Assembly (NCBI RefSeq): GCF_003952225.1
Contig: NZ_CP034437.1
Coordinates: 6,062,001 to 6,126,000, forward strand
Reading direction: 5' to 3'
DNA: 64,000 nt
Source: Paenibacillus albus
Lineage (GTDB): Bacteria > Bacillota > Bacilli > Paenibacillales > Paenibacillaceae
Positions 11,003-46,840 of the stretch are shown one piece after another. Made by a program: the position numbers and the translations under genes. The notes below the pieces were generated by a model. It saw only the letters and a program-made list of their open reading frames with translations. It did no database searches and was not told the origin of the DNA. How positions within the stretch are numbered: the stretch's first letter is position 1; the number at the start of each line of letters is the position of its first letter.

Positions 11003-11887
11003 TCATTCCCCGGTATTCGTATTCGCATTCGCATTTGAATTCTCATTTGAATTCGCATCCGTATTCGTCGAAGCAGGCACCGATCCGTCAGATCCAGCCG
11101 TTCCGCCCTCCGTTGGCGACGTCGTGGTGACGCCGTTCTTGCCATTTTGCATCGGAAGTGAAATATTCGGAGCATTCGGCGCGGAATCGCCAACCGGATT
11201 GCCCTTGTTGTCATAATAGTACATCGGCACATCGCCAACGACGAGCAGGTACGAGATCGGAATTTCCGTATCCACGAGCTCCGGCTGCGTATCGAACGGA
11301 ATGATGATGGAAACCTCCGCCACGATATGCATATACACCTCGACGAGGATCATATTAATCCCGGCATCCTTTTGGCGCGTGTCAAGATCGACCTTTACGG
11401 CGCCCATTGGCTCGAATTTAACCGGGATACGCGGACCGAATGAAGCGATAATGGCGCTGCCGAGCGCTTGGCCGAGCGGTATTTTCTCCGGGATGTCGCC
11501 CATATGGTTCAAGGTCGACTGCACCGTATCGATCGTCTCGGACGTAATGCGCATATGCTCGGAGTAATTCAGCATGAAGCCGGACACTTTTCCGCTCGCA
11601 TTCGTCTTCCACTCAATGAGCTTATCGACGGACGATTGATGAGCAACCTGCTCCGTAATCGCCTTATTGATCGCCTGCGTCGCAACCTGCTTGACGCGGA
11701 CCTTGGCAACAGCCATGAGCGGACCTTGTAAATTCCGTTCGACGAAAATAAACATCTGGAAGAAGAACAGTCCGAAGATGACCAGCAAAATAAGAACGAG
11801 CTTGCTTCGGCTCATCTTCTTGCCGCTGCCTCCCGATCGACGCCGGCGTCCGCTGCTTCGCCATCCCCTTCTTCCCCATCTGCGCAT
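11003..11887 (-). CDS. yunB: Sporulation protein YunB
   Basis: Sporulation protein, mother-cell expressed in B. subtilis, with an N-terminal membrane span. The protein opens with a very basic stretch (MRRWGRRGWRSSGRRRR), then a span at about residues 28-48 (LVLILLVIFGLFFFQMFIF), then the conserved YunB body with AINKAI, IPLGQALGSAI, GPRIPVKFEPMG and VEVYMHIVAEVSIIIPF. AGGAGG precedes the ATG. The last ~60 residues are a low-complexity Ser/Thr/Asn tail ending in alternating Asn-Ala and Asn-Thr, encoded by near-perfect six-base repeats (ATTCGC on the plus strand at about 11014-11064), a place prone to length change. Confidence 0.9.
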   Translation of the reverse strand: MRRWGRRGWRSSGRRRRSGGSGKKMSRSKLVLILLVIFGLFFFQMFIFVERNLQGPLMAVAKVRVKQVATQAINKAITEQVAHQSSVDKLIEWKTNASGKVSGFMLNYSEHMRITSETIDTVQSTLNHMGDIPEKIPLGQALGSAIIASFGPRIPVKFEPMGAVKVDLDTRQKDAGINMILVEVYMHIVAEVSIIIPFDTQPELVDTEIPISYLLVVGDVPMYYYDNKGNPVGDSAPNAPNISLPMQNGKNGVTTTSPTEGGTAGSDGSVPASTNTDANSNENSNANANTNTGE

Positions 11888-20663: not shown

Positions 20664-20678
20664 CGGGGGAGGATTGAG

Positions 20679-20984
20679 TGTGGTCCACCAGACCAGCTTC
20701 TTGAGCTCGTTTGGATGGATTTCTGTGAGATGTGGTCCAGCAGACCAGCTTCTTTCGCTCGCTTGGGCGGTTTTCTACGAATGTAGTCCACCAGACCAGC
20801 TTCTTGAGCTCGCTTGGGTGGTTTTCTGCGAATGTAGTCCAGCAGACCAGCTTCTTGCACTCGTTTGGGCGGATTTCTGCGAATGTAGTCCAGCAGACCA
20901 GCTTCTTTCGCTCGCTTGGATGGAGTTCTACGAATGTAGTCCAGTTTGGCTACCTCTCTCGCATAAATGGTCCCTTTCCACTCA
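20679..20984. repeat. 51-bp tandem repeat array A (GGTC...GACC core)
   Basis: Six units starting (TGTGG or TGTAG) at 20679, 20731, 20782, 20833, 20884 and 20935; spacing 52, 51, 51, 51, 51, then 50 to array B. The pattern is TGTAG, core TCCAGCAGACCAGCT, TCTTTCGCTCG, a G-rich middle, then TTCTGCGAA. The core is a small inverted repeat (GGTC/GACC in the first copies). The sixth unit is a hybrid joining to array B. Frames over the array encode 17-residue repeats with no ribosome site. Confidence 0.85.
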
Positions 20985-21290
20985 TGTAGATCCCTAGGGG
21001 ATTCTCTTTCACCAAATTAGCTGCTTTCCCACTCATGTAGATCCCTGGGGGATGCTCTTTCACCAAATTGGCTGCTTTCCCACTCATGTAGATCCCTGGG
21101 GGATACTCTTTCACCAAATTAGCTGCTTTCCCACTCATGTAGATCCCTGGGGGATGCTCTTTCACCAAATTGGCTGCTTTCCCACTCATGTAGATCCCTG
21201 GGGGATACTCTTTCACCAAATTAGCTGCCTCTCCACTTATGTAAATCCCTAGGGGATGCTCTTTCGCCAAATTGGCTGCTTTCCCACTCA
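20985..21290. repeat. 51-bp tandem repeat array B (ATCCC...GGGAT core)
   Basis: Six units start at 20985, 21036, 21087, 21138, 21189 and 21240, exactly 51 bases apart. Each is TGTAG, core ATCCCTGGGGGAT, then GCTCTTTCACCAAATTGG and CTGCTTTCCCACTCA. Alternate units differ at two matching positions (GATG with TTGG, GATA with TTAG), giving a two-unit alternating pattern. A 205-codon minus-strand frame across them has a 17-residue period (KEHPPGIYMSGKAANLV); I regard it as non-coding. Confidence 0.87.
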
Positions 21291-24418: not shown

Positions 24419-24439
24419 GAAGCAGCTCCTTTCGTCGAA

Positions 24440-24592
24440 AGCAGATCCCTAGGGGATTCTCTTTCTCACATTCAGCCAGTTTTCCGCCAATGTAGATCCC
24501 TGGGGGATTCTCTTTCGCTCATTTCGCCGGATTTTCGCCAATGTAGATCCCTGGGGGATTCTCTTTCACTCATTTCGCCGGATTTCCACCTT
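24440..24592. repeat. 51-bp tandem repeat array C
   Basis: Three units at 24440, 24491 and 24542 with array B's core (ATCCCTGGGGGAT) followed by TCTCTTTCGCTCATTTCGCCGG and TTTTCGCCAA. The array fills nearly all of the 183-base gap between nagA and the TIM-barrel gene, both transcribed leftward, so it is either inside a read-through transcript or overlaps the promoter of the downstream operon. Confidence 0.85.
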
Positions 24593-42820: not shown

Positions 42821-43780
42821 ATGATGTCAAATTCAGCGCAATCTGGCAGCAAGGTGATCGTCATCGGAGAGTTGAACGTCGATTTGATTTTTGCGGATTC
42901 GAATATCAGGCCGGAGCCGAACCGCGAGAAGCTCGTTCGGGATTTCCGCCTTGCTCTCGGCTCTTCTTCAGCGATAGCGGCGGCGGGATTGGCCGGACTC
43001 GGGCTTGAAGTTGCCTTCGTCTCCATCGTTGGGGATGACGAGTTCGGGCATTTCTGCCTGAAGGAGCTTGCACGGTTGGGCGTCGATGTAACGCATGTGG
43101 CGGTGGACCGCTCGGTGCGTACCGGCGTGACGCTGTCACTGACGGATGGACATGACCGCTCGCTGCTTACATATATGGGCTCGATCGGCTCGGTTACGCC
43201 TGCTTTAGTTCCTGCGGAACTGTTCCGCGAGGCGGCGCATGTGCACTTCGGCTCTTACTTTCTGCAAGATGCGATGCGGCCGCATTGGCTTGAAGTGTTC
43301 AAGCTCGCGAAAGCTTGCGGGCTGACTACATCGTTCGACGCCGGCTGGGACCCGGCGGAGCACTGGGATCGGGAACGGCTGGCGGCTCTGCTCGCTTATA
43401 CGGATTGGTTCATCCCGAGCGAGGAAGAAGCGCTGCGAGTGTTCGAGGCAGGCGCGGTCGATGAGCTGCCGGAACGGCTGCCAGCGGAACGCGGTGCGGT
43501 GATCGTGAAGTGCGGCAGCGCGGGATCGGTCGGTTTGTTCGCGGACGGGCGGGTCGAATATGCGCCGCCGTTCTCGGTGCAGCCGGTCGACACGACCGGG
43601 GCCGGCGACTCGTTCAACGCCGGCTTCATTGCCTCGAAGCTGCGCGGCGGGACGGATCGGGAGGCGCTTGAATACGCCAATGCGTGCGGCGCGCTCTCGA
43701 CGCTTGCCATCGGCGGGGCTGGCGCGGTCTCGCTGGAGGGATTGGCGCGGTTTTGGCCGGAAGGGCGGCGGCCGGCATGA
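42821..43780 (+). CDS. PfkB family carbohydrate kinase (ribokinase-like)
   Basis: A 319-residue sugar kinase. Signature 1 region: VIGELNVDLIFADSN with the N-terminal GELNVD, then LGSSSAIAAAGLAGLGLEVAFVSIVGDDEFG; signature 2 near residue 250: VDTTGAGDSFNAGFIA with catalytic Asp in GAGDS. Substrate cannot be fixed (ribose, fructose, KDG or other). 20 bases after DUF4091; the stop overlaps an in-frame ATG of the next gene's reading frame. Confidence 0.9.
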   Translation: MMSNSAQSGSKVIVIGELNVDLIFADSNIRPEPNREKLVRDFRLALGSSSAIAAAGLAGLGLEVAFVSIVGDDEFGHFCLKELARLGVDVTHVAVDRSVRTGVTLSLTDGHDRSLLTYMGSIGSVTPALVPAELFREAAHVHFGSYFLQDAMRPHWLEVFKLAKACGLTTSFDAGWDPAEHWDRERLAALLAYTDWFIPSEEEALRVFEAGAVDELPERLPAERGAVIVKCGSAGSVGLFADGRVEYAPPFSVQPVDTTGAGDSFNAGFIASKLRGGTDREALEYANACGALSTLAIGGAGAVSLEGLARFWPEGRRPA

Positions 43781-43809
43781 GTGACGTAGGAAATGGGGGA
43801 TCGCCGGAC

Positions 43810-44745
43810 ATGTCGATTGTCTGCGTTTCATTAAACACCGCTATTGATAAGCGGCTGCTCGTTCCCGTGTTTCAGCTTGGCGCGGTCAACCGCGCCGTTC
43901 AGGTCAACGCAACCGCTGGCGGCAAAGGGCTGAATGTCGCGCGCGTGGCACAGTCGCTTGGTGCGGACGTGCTTGCCGTAGGATTTGCAGGAGGCAGCAA
44001 CGGAGATTGGATTAGGAGAAAGCTCGATTCGATCGACCTTGCTCACCAGATGGTGCCCATTGCTCAGGAGAGCCGGATCTGCCTCAATATGATTGATCGT
44101 GATACAGGCCAATCAACCGAGGTGCTTGAACCGGGGCCGGAAATCTCAGCAGCGGAGAAGGAACAGTTCCTTGCATTGTGGAAGAAGCTGTGCGTGCCCG
44201 GTAGATGGCTGTCATTGTCCGGCAGCTTGCCGCGCGGGCTCGGCAATGACTTCTATGCACGGCTTGTGGCAGAGGCGCGAGGAGCCGGAGCTTGGGTCGT
44301 ACTGGATACGAGCGGCGAGCCATTGCAGCTTGGCGTCTTGAGCGGCCCGCATACGGTGAAGCCGAATGAGGAGGAGTTTCGGCAGTGGTGCGGCGCCGAT
44401 CCGCGCGACTATGCCGCAGTGCGGCGAGTGGCGGCAGAGCTTGGCAGCCATGGCGTGCAGACGCTGCTTGTATCGCTCGGGCGCGAAGGCTGCATCGCGG
44501 CTAAGCCGGACGGCAGTCTGTGGCTGGCGGTCCCCCCAGCCGTGGACGCCGTCAACCCGGTCGGCAGCGGCGACTCCTTCGTCGCCGGCTGGACCGTTGC
44601 TTGCTCGCGCGGGCTCGCTGTCTCGGAAGCGCTGCGCTGTGCGGTTGCCGCGGGCACCGTCAACGCGATGTCCCCGGGCACCGGCGAAGTCGATCGTTCC
44701 GCGGCGGAGGCTATGGCTTCGCGGGTTGTTGTGACGCAGCTCTAG
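43810..44745 (+). CDS. PfkB family kinase, 1-phosphofructokinase / tagatose-6-phosphate kinase-like
   Basis: A 311-residue kinase of the LacC/FruK branch: IVCVSLNTAIDKRLLV at the start, NATAGGKGLNVARVAQSLG (GGKGxNVA) near residue 36, SGSLPRGLG near 140 and NPVGSGDSFVAGW near 252 with the catalytic Asp. The branch phosphorylates sugar phosphates to bisphosphates that an aldolase cleaves. The start at 43810 has GGGGG about 9 bases upstream; an ATGA overlap start at 43777 would add 11 residues. With the first PfkB this gives two sequential phosphorylations, a sugar to sugar-phosphate to bisphosphate route; no aldolase is in the window. Confidence 0.88.
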   Translation: MSIVCVSLNTAIDKRLLVPVFQLGAVNRAVQVNATAGGKGLNVARVAQSLGADVLAVGFAGGSNGDWIRRKLDSIDLAHQMVPIAQESRICLNMIDRDTGQSTEVLEPGPEISAAEKEQFLALWKKLCVPGRWLSLSGSLPRGLGNDFYARLVAEARGAGAWVVLDTSGEPLQLGVLSGPHTVKPNEEEFRQWCGADPRDYAAVRRVAAELGSHGVQTLLVSLGREGCIAAKPDGSLWLAVPPAVDAVNPVGSGDSFVAGWTVACSRGLAVSEALRCAVAAGTVNAMSPGTGEVDRSAAEAMASRVVVTQL

Positions 44746-44752
44746 TTTTGTT

Positions 44753-44784
44753 AAAAGGACAGCCCAAGCGCGGCTGTCCTTTTT
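44753..44784 (+). terminator. Rho-independent terminator of the DUF4091 operon
   Basis: AAAAGGACAGCC and GGCTGTCCTTTTT flank a 7-base loop, 7 bases after the stop of the second PfkB gene. Confidence 0.92.
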
Positions 44785-44900
44785 CGTTTCATTTTCGGTC
44801 TATGGTTTTTCTCCAGCCCCCATGCTCCTCAAACGATGCCCATGTGCTCCATTACCCGCCCTACCGCCGAACAACTAATGAACGTTTCAATGGGGGGAAA

Positions 44901-45754
44901 AAGAGTACTCCAAGTATCTGCATTGGTGGAATTACGGTAGGTTGAGCTAATGTGAGTACTCTAGGTATCTACATTGGTGGATTTACGACAGGTTGAGCTA
45001 AAGAGAGTACTCTAAGTATCTACTTTGGTAGCGAAAATCCGGCGAATCGAGCCAATGTAGCTGGTCTACTGGACCTCTTCCGTGGAAATCCGGCGAATCG
45101 AGCCAATGTAGCTGGTCTACTGGACCTCTTTCGCTGAAACCCGGCGAATCGAGCCAATGTAGCCGGTCTGCTGGACCTCTTTCGCGGAATTCCGGCGAAT
45201 CGAGCCAATGTAGCTGGTCTACTGGACCTCTTTCGCGGAATTTCCGCGAATCCAACGAAGGTAGCTGGTTTACTAGACCTCTTCGACGATATTCCGGCGA
45301 ATCAAGCCAATGTAGCTGGTCTGCTGGACCTCTTTCGCGAAACCCCGGCGAATTGAGCCAATGTAGCCAGTCTGCTGGACCTCTTCCGTGGAAATCCGGC
45401 GAATCGAACCAATGTAGCTGGTCTGCTGGACCTCTTCCGTGGAAACCCGGCGAATCGAGCCAATGTAGCCGGTCTGCTGGACCTCTTTCGCGGAATTCCG
45501 GCGAATCGAGCCAATGTAGTTGGTCTACTGGACCTCTTTCGCGGAATTCCGGCGAATCGAGCCAATGTAGCTGGTCTGCTGGACCTCTTCGGCGGAAATC
45601 CAGCAAATCGGGCCAATGTAGCTGGTCTACTGGACCTCTTTCGCGGAATTCCCGCGAATCGAGCCAATGCAGCTGGTCTACTGGACCCCTTCGGCGGAAT
45701 TCCGCCAAAACCTGCCAATGTAGCTGGTCCACTGGACCTCTTCCGCGGAATTCT
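44901..45754. repeat. 51-bp tandem repeat array D (17 units, two orientations)
   Basis: Fills the ~1-kb gap between the PfkB terminator and the MDR gene; I see no gene in it. Three units read on the minus strand (TGTAG boxes at 44918-44922, 44969-44973, 45020-45024, core ATACCTAGAGTACT), followed by fourteen units on the plus strand whose TGTAG boxes start at 45056 and every 51 bases to 45719 without an indel. The plus units have the core CTGGTCTACTGGAC, then CTCTTTCGCGGAA and GGCGAATCGAGCCAA. A 244-codon minus-strand frame and a 143-codon plus-strand frame are open only because 51 is a multiple of three. Confidence 0.9.
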
Positions 45755-45805
45755 CATCAAATGAAAAAGAGAGCCCCCATCTAGCAGGCCCCCTCCCCTC
45801 CTATA

Positions 45806-46840
45806 CTATCCGCGCCTGCGCCAATCCAGAATGACACCGCACGCGCGGTTCTTATGGTGAAGAAGCAGCTCATACGCCAGCTTCGCTTCCGTACTCGGCA
45901 GCCGGTGCGTGATGAACGGCTCCACGCAGAGTGCGCCGTTCTGGATCATGCCGAGCACTTCCCGATATAGCTCGCCCGAGGTCGGCAGCCCCTCGATTCC
46001 TTTGAGAGAAGCATGTGCTCCAGTCATGCTTATACCTTTGCGATGAATGAGATCATATACATTCAACGTCACTAACCCCCGCGTTGAACCAAGCAGGATC
46101 ACTTGCCCAAGCTGACGGCACAGCTCCAGCGCCGTAATAACCAGCTCGGGCACGCCGCTTGCTTCAACCACGATGTCCGGGTCTTTGCCGCCAGTGATGC
46201 GATGAACATCTTCCCGAAGCGCGGCCGTCCCGCCTTCTCCGCCGGACAGCACAACATGCGCAATGCCCGTCTGCTTTGCCAGCTCCAGCCGCTCCGGCAC
46301 GACGTCGATGCTGATCGGAATGGCGCCGCGCTGCGCAAACAGCTGCGCTGCTAAGTTGCCGACCAAACCCATGCCGAGGACAGCGACATAGTCGCCCTCT
46401 CGCACCCGCGACAAGAGCACCGACGTCATCGAAATTTCGGCGATCCGTCCAAACAATGCAAGCTCCGGCCTCAAGCCCTCCGGCAGCCGGACAACCAAAT
46501 CATCTGCTGCTTCCAGCACTTCATGGCTCGCATGATGCCCCGCCGTGAAGACACGGTCGCCACGCTCAAATCCACTATTCGCTCCCGCTTCCACCACTTC
46601 TCCCACCGTCGAATATCCCGGATGGAACGGAAACTTCGCGAAGCGGTTTGCCGGATTCGGCAAATCAATGTGCGTGCCTGTATATAGCGCCAGCTCCGTT
46701 CCCGGGCTAATCAAGCTATAATGCGTCTCTACCAGAACTTCGCGTTCACCTAATCGCGCCCCCTCTGGCCGCTCGCTCTCTTCATACTGAACCGAATAAG
46801 GACCGGGAAACCGCAGTTTCGTTATATGACGCATCGTCAT
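45806..46840 (-). CDS. MDR-family (zinc-type) alcohol/sugar dehydrogenase
   Basis: A 344-residue medium-chain dehydrogenase. Landmarks: HYSLISPGTELALYTG near residue 40 (region of the first zinc ligand, where Cys is replaced), FPFHPGYSTVGEVVEAG (GxExxG-like), VLGMGLVGNLAAQLFAQRGA (nucleotide-binding loop near 156) and VVEASGVPELV. The absence of the catalytic Cys and of the four structural-zinc cysteines suggests a zinc-independent or unusual member (BchC/2-desacetyl-like branch). The start lies inside the 3' end of the ROK gene (59-base overlap). Last gene of a seven-gene operon. Confidence 0.85.
   Translation of the reverse strand: MTMRHITKLRFPGPYSVQYEESERPEGARLGEREVLVETHYSLISPGTELALYTGTHIDLPNPANRFAKFPFHPGYSTVGEVVEAGANSGFERGDRVFTAGHHASHEVLEAADDLVVRLPEGLRPELALFGRIAEISMTSVLLSRVREGDYVAVLGMGLVGNLAAQLFAQRGAIPISIDVVPERLELAKQTGIAHVVLSGGEGGTAALREDVHRITGGKDPDIVVEASGVPELVITALELCRQLGQVILLGSTRGLVTLNVYDLIHRKGISMTGAHASLKGIEGLPTSGELYREVLGMIQNGALCVEPFITHRLPSTEAKLAYELLLHHKNRACGVILDWRRRG

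Follow-up and report, generated by a model that had tools for sequence, protein, structure and literature searches.

Polar arrays of 51-bp units with exchangeable palindromic cores in the chromosomes of Paenibacillus and Cohnella

Introduction

Several described systems resemble, in one respect or another, the arrays of 51-bp units that we report here. The BIMEs of enterobacteria are likewise mosaic extragenic arrays of palindromes and spacers, but their palindromes alternate in orientation, whereas the arrays described below run in one direction that is set by replication. Noc sites are also palindromes of 14 bp that occur across the chromosome and are scarce near the terminus; unlike the arrays, they share one sequence and are neither tandem nor polar. 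The polar AIMS, KOPS and SRS motifs are single octamers that grow denser toward the terminus, where the 51-bp arrays become rarer. VNTR/MIRU minisatellites have in common with the arrays tandem intergenic units of about 50 bp and a copy number that varies between relatives, but not a 51-bp length and frame common to tens of loci in many species, nor a covarying palindrome. An orientation set by the direction of replication links the arrays to AIMS, KOPS and SRS (for AIMS, PMC5993296).

GTAG REPs are short extragenic imperfect palindromes that carry GTAG at one foot and are moved by RAYT transposases (PMC3733652). A 2013 survey reported them from Proteobacteria, Cyanobacteria, Chloroflexi and the PVC group; Firmicutes were not named (PMC3733652). 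Like the GTAG-REP/RAYT systems (PMC3733652, PMC2817692), the arrays are extragenic, contain a repeated short (20-40 bp) imperfect palindrome, come in several families per genome and lie between genes that are convergent or co-directional; the palindrome has a foot that is GTAG in most units. However, GTAG REPs occur as singletons or as inverted dimers flanking a RAYT gene, whereas the units of the arrays stand strictly head to tail, have a variable foot (GTGG, GTGT or GTAC) and follow replication polarity. The RAYT (Y1 transposase) profile PF01797 scored above cut-off in none of the 11 array-bearing genomes of the genus, P. albus included, and in Cohnella the presence of RAYT does not track that of arrays. 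On the absence of PF01797 from these 11 genomes we rejected a RAYT/IS200 partner. With RAYT absent, membership in the GTAG-REP class fails on a defining feature, although REP-like behaviour may remain. The open-access literature yielded nothing relevant on a 51-bp repeat or a REP in Paenibacillus or Cohnella. Here we analyse a 64,000-nt stretch of the Paenibacillus albus chromosome (the window; NZ_CP034437.1, 6,062,001 to 6,126,000), one array within it, array D, and the family to which that array belongs.

Results

Array D occupies positions 44898-45753, between two convergent genes (Table 1). A preliminary description had divided it into 3 minus and 14 plus units, the latter at exact 51-base steps, and this composition is borne out both by a reading of the letters and by TRF. 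The plus heads begin at 45054 and 45105 and continue to 45717 in 13 successive steps, each of exactly 51; from the last minus head to the first plus head the step is 54. The 14 plus units have a mean identity of 83% (range 63-100%) and no indels. Both core words named in the preliminary description belong to a single unit type with constant head and tail and an exchangeable palindromic core. The terminator on the pfkB side is strong and was recovered by a terminator tool scan as well as by a custom search. The hairpin on the dehydrogenase side is a weaker candidate, found by the custom search only and absent from the tool scan.

Table 1. Arrays in the window and features flanking array D (positions counted from the first nucleotide of the window)
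Feature	Position	Strand	Description
Array A	20677-20959	+	Class I core in reverse, TCCAGCAGACCAGC; between a LacI-type regulator gene and a GFO/IDH/MocA gene
Array B	20983-21290	+	Class II core ATCCCTGGGGGAT; joins array A nearly in register (50 bases)
Array C	24438-24592	+	Three class II units
PfkB-family carbohydrate kinase gene	43684-44745	+	Left flank of array D; convergent
Intrinsic terminator	44753-44783	+	Between the pfkB gene and array D; 12-bp stem, T run
Array D, minus units	44898-45026	-	Heads 44898-44924, 44949-44975 and 45000-45026; core ATACTTAGAGTACT
Array D, 14 plus units	45054-45753	+	Core CTGGTCTRCTGGAC, imperfect palindrome GGTCTACTGGACC
Terminator-like hairpin	45765-45797	-	Between the alcohol dehydrogenase gene and array D; TCATTT after it
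Zinc-type alcohol dehydrogenase gene	45806-46840	-	Right flank of array D; convergent

The window holds three other arrays of the 51-bp kind (A to C in Table 1). At the junction of arrays A and B, reversed class I gives way to class II across a step of 50 bases, and the junction unit (20933) is a hybrid. The pattern ATGTAG-N14-CTCTT, with two mismatches or fewer, has 35 matches in the window against 3.4 expected, and a count of 35 was reached in 0 of 100 shuffles. The window also contains, at 11015-11067, a short tandem repeat of 6/12 bases (ATTCGC/ATTCGCATTTGA) that overlaps the 3' end of the ORF at 11003. Across the whole P. albus chromosome (6.63 Mb) there are about 32 arrays of 51-bp units; of these, 27 were examined closely. 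Their cores fall into the classes CTGGTCTRCTGGAC, its reverse complement, ATCCCTNNGGGAT, GGTACNNCGTACC and ATACTTAGAGTAC, and a single array may hold successive classes in or near register. Close to one array, at 6.282 Mb, stands a GC-rich 51-bp tandem repeat beginning GGCGCTTGGCGCGGACGCTTCGCGCAAG (L031, 1052-1304), of unrelated sequence and equal period. A CRISPR array was considered and rejected, since spacers recur within an array and what varies is part of the unit itself.

One unit is common to all arrays, as rendered in a sequence logo: ATGTRG, 14 variable bases, YTCTT and an array-specific spacer of about 25 nt. The 14-nt core is an imperfect palindrome whose sequence is specific to the array and the species. 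Cores elsewhere are very different (TGCACCGGGTGCA, CTCAAATTTTGAG, GTAACTGGATTAC, AGCTCTGGGAGCT and TCGATCTGATCGA) and yet palindromic about the same point. Among 52 distinct non-class-I cores, a set chosen to be diverse and leaving out class I (the core of array D itself), standard pairs fill 82% of the cells at six paired positions; shuffling lowers the figure to 51%, and 0 of 500 shuffles equalled it. The covariation score is 0.778, with slid controls at or below 0.225. When all 388 distinct non-class-I heads are taken together, Watson-Crick pairs make up 52-71% of cells at the five core pairs, where 27-44% would be expected. In class I the dyad is offset by about 2 bases, and this core also occurs flipped about its centre. 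In P. lycopersici and in most Cohnella the core comes close to a perfect palindrome; in P. sp. CF384 and P. lignilyticus it is only half palindromic.

The foot is GTAG in most units and GTGG, GTGT or GTAC in a sizeable share, its last base covarying with the other foot, and the bases around it, ATGT and YTCTT, are constant. Four contigs of one genome (G303; C19, C41, C44 and C49) have ATGTAC as a variant foot, in combination with cores like CGTACCTCGTACCG; there the opposite side has changed to a base that pairs with the last base of the foot, which lengthens the palindrome by one pair. Because the constant flanks that enclose the palindrome are asymmetric, the site is a dyad with a direction.

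The preliminary description had held that unit length is conserved in spite of base divergence, and this extends well beyond array D. In a census of 831 units in 136 arrays of two genera, the 684 steps that fall between 49 and 53 comprise 639 of exactly 51, 31 of 52, 11 of 50, two of 49 and one of 53. The units run head to tail, 2-23 of them at 51. A few arrays (L028, L017, L025 and L026) run at 52 or alternate between 51 and 52, which suggests that a step of 52 is tolerated and that 50 is rarer. Mismatch between adjacent units is about 0.05 in the flanks, 0.13 in the core and 0.27 in the spacer. P. albus arrays of the same class share 83% of the core and 47% of the spacer, spacer identity being 42% between classes and 27% after shuffling. 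Given that same-class arrays have the core in common and far less of the spacer, core and flanks are maintained, or propagated, separately from the spacer, which is itself constrained mainly in length. Fifty-one bases are close to five helical turns, and the natural reading would be a phasing of putative bound proteins.

Fifty-one bases are also 17 codons, and array D contains a frame open for 244 codons. The preliminary description nonetheless took the array not to be a gene, and in this it was right: stops occur in all frames across the family (25-88% of units have one, in every frame), and over 114 arrays the changes between adjacent units fall on the three codon phases at 0.184, 0.180 and 0.190, with no 3-base phase. 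Its suggestion of looking for codon-like periodicity has a less uniform outcome: in array D, and there alone, changes in plus frame 0 fall in excess at third positions (38 of 71), and 36 are synonymous where 23.5 would be expected. That frame has three stops, and in the OV219 ortholog most units read AAT-TGA in it, as judged by eye from the unit list.

Array orientation follows replication. With the origin placed by dnaA and the strand of an array taken as the majority strand of its units, all 32 arrays of P. albus have ATGTRG...YTCTT on the minus strand where they lie right of the origin, and on the plus strand where they lie left of it. The same polarity holds in four other Paenibacillus genomes (8 of 8, 15 of 15, 6 of 6 and 8 of 9 arrays) and in one Cohnella (6 of 6), so that 75 of 76 arrays in six genomes of two genera obey it (p of about 2e-21 if arrays are independent; orthologous arrays are not independent across species, and P. 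albus alone gives p of about 5e-10). Two of the genomes surveyed, G315 and G308, have two dnaA-like genes with the DnaA C-terminal domain in one chromosome; the origin was placed at the gene at 3.618 Mb in G315 and at the 452-residue one in G308. Minority units against the rule number three each at 0.594, 1.588 and 6.107 Mb in P. albus, the last of these being array D. The compound arrays at the first two sites (L010 and L018) have, like D, opposite-orientation runs at one array end.

Most P. albus arrays sit between convergent genes, and an array at 2.08 Mb between head-on genes still obeys the replication rule; gene direction is thus not the cause of the polarity. Counted by fifths from origin to terminus the arrays number 19, 29, 20, 6 and 2, thinning toward the terminus. 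In a larger set, 49 array contexts are convergent, 45 co-directional and 3 divergent, according to gene calls that, like those around the P. albus arrays, come from a simple hexamer-score caller rather than a reference annotation. A terminator stands between the gene and a convergent array in 32 of 47 cases on the left (68%) and 26 of 49 on the right (53%), against about 5% in mononucleotide shuffles. No gene family is found constantly beside the arrays, neighbours being shared only by orthologous pairs of loci.

A two-unit pattern occurs in 22 of 394 Paenibacillaceae genomes, nearly all of them in the Paenibacillus genus of the window or in Cohnella. A three-unit pattern, searched for in all GTDB species representatives, matches only in Paenibacillus (OV219, lycopersici, CF384, taihuensis, lignilyticus and montanisoli) and Cohnella. 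The family is found only in the Paenibacillus OV219/taihuensis group and Cohnella. Reversed-pattern controls in the genome survey were almost all zero, which led us to reject a chance origin. A phage or plasmid origin was rejected as well, the two-unit pattern occurring in 0 viral contigs and array D in 0 plasmids. About half of the genomes in the genus of the window are without arrays, and the array system is therefore dispensable. Nearly every genome, with or without arrays, has three ParB_N genes; their count does not follow array presence, and extra ParB/Noc paralogs were accordingly rejected as partners of the arrays.

Many arrays stand at orthologous sites in several species, as identified by flanking genes, with differing cores. 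At the site of array D, the 3 minus and 14 plus units of P. albus correspond to 2 minus and 10 plus units of the same class in P. sp. OV219, to 4 minus and 3 plus units of the reversed class in P. taihuensis, to about 18-20 plus units of two quite different classes in P. sp. CF384 and to 7 units of yet another class in P. lignilyticus. Unit number and order had been proposed for comparison among strains: over these five species the number ranges from 7 to 20, core and spacer differ, and the orientation switch of array D recurs in two of the other species. Unit length, claimed to be conserved, stays at 51 in all five, with single steps of 50-53. Orthologs of the alcohol dehydrogenase (92-68% identical) adjoin an array wherever pfkB is the neighbour; in two further relatives (dehydrogenase 81%) the gene lies in another context, and no array is found there. 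Orthologous sites with different cores indicate that arrays persist while the core word is replaced in place.

Discussion

The interpretation offered by the preliminary description is partly supported: it was right that length is preserved in something other than a gene. It passed over the palindromic core and its turnover in place, the genus-wide extent of the family, the link between orientation and replication, and the location of arrays between terminators of convergent genes. Taking these into account, we tentatively read the arrays as DNA-level rows of polar sites for a putative fast-evolving factor along the chromosome arms, with a probability of roughly 0.4. We place this reading ahead of a selfish repeat without RAYT, and that in turn ahead of a functionless satellite.

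That cores change in step across many arrays while spacers drift suggests a trans-acting DNA-binding factor; protein binding, and action at the level of DNA, are our best guess. Units about five helical turns apart would set putative bound proteins on one face of the helix, where they could cooperate, and such phasing may be the cause of the 51-base length. Most arrays would be held away from transcription by their position in terminator-bounded gaps between convergent genes. A factor, or a few paralogous ones, with fast-evolving specificity might then read the sites along the axis from origin to terminus, and candidate roles include chromosome organisation, segregation and fork or repair traffic. 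One dimeric protein explains poorly the several classes per genome and the half-palindromic cores of CF384 and P. lignilyticus. A more specific proposal, which we hold with less assurance, is that of an unreported chromosome-marking system made of tandem, helically phased, directional operator arrays on both chromosome arms, with a quickly diverging DNA-binding factor as their reader, in which the arrays of a species change their recognition word together.

The main rival is a selfish, REP-like repeat that does without RAYT, which we regard as possible but doubtful. GTAG-tagged palindromes would have been mobilised via the single-stranded DNA of one replication strand by an HUH-type or other nuclease, now lost or diverged; local amplification would have produced the tandem arrays, and successive element families the core classes. 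Arguing for this, the foot that is mostly GTAG, the extragenic palindromes, the many copies, the several families and the gene context match GTAG REPs (PMC3733652), and strand-specific insertion would yield the replication polarity. Against it stand the lack of a Y1/RAYT gene in the 11 array-bearing genomes and its failure to track arrays in Cohnella, the presence of arrays at orthologous sites in several species, the head-to-tail order at a fixed 51 in place of singletons or inverted dimers, and the absence of the two-unit pattern from viral contigs and of array D from plasmids.

Alternatively, the arrays could be functionless satellites that expand and contract through replication slippage and unequal exchange, with hairpin-driven template switching keeping the cores palindromic and with arrays in the replication-unstable orientation being lost, leaving the polarity. 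Orientation-dependent repeat stability is known in general and counts in favour of this idea, as do the differing unit numbers of species at one site (7-20), the homogenisation of units within arrays and the flipping of the class I core about its centre. We nevertheless find it improbable. ATGTRG and YTCTT remain the same in both genera, and within arrays they are five times less variable than the spacer; the spacer keeps its length while its sequence drifts; and a core is common to loci without common spacers. Single core hairpins are also weak, at -1 to -5 kcal/mol as DNA.

Compensatory changes in the palindromic cores, and the location of arrays downstream of genes, would fit an element acting as RNA, a transcribed string of hairpins in 3' untranslated regions with a part in mRNA stability or regulation. 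Yet terminators precede most convergent arrays, polarity follows replication and not the flanking genes, and a search of Rfam gave no match over the gathering score and none above chance scores. G-T and A-C mismatches in the core are about equally common (72 against 54), and there is thus no signature of one-strand RNA. We consider an RNA-level role very improbable. Least credible by far is a coding repeat of 17-residue units, which we rejected on the stops in every frame, the missing 3-base phase and the OV219 stop in the best frame of array D, in spite of the local third-position excess and open frame there.

If the units are binding sites, the arrays would constitute a natural experiment in which a DNA-binding specificity and tens of sites on the chromosome co-evolve; they would also be a novel type of signal, one that conveys the direction of replication in regions other than the terminus. 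Should they instead be selfish, they would be GTAG-REP-like repeats in Firmicutes without RAYT, and would bear on how REP families arise or are kept up without a transposase. Under either reading, the chromosomes of these soil bacteria present two clear-cut facts open to test: a 51-bp ruler and an array polarity that follows replication.
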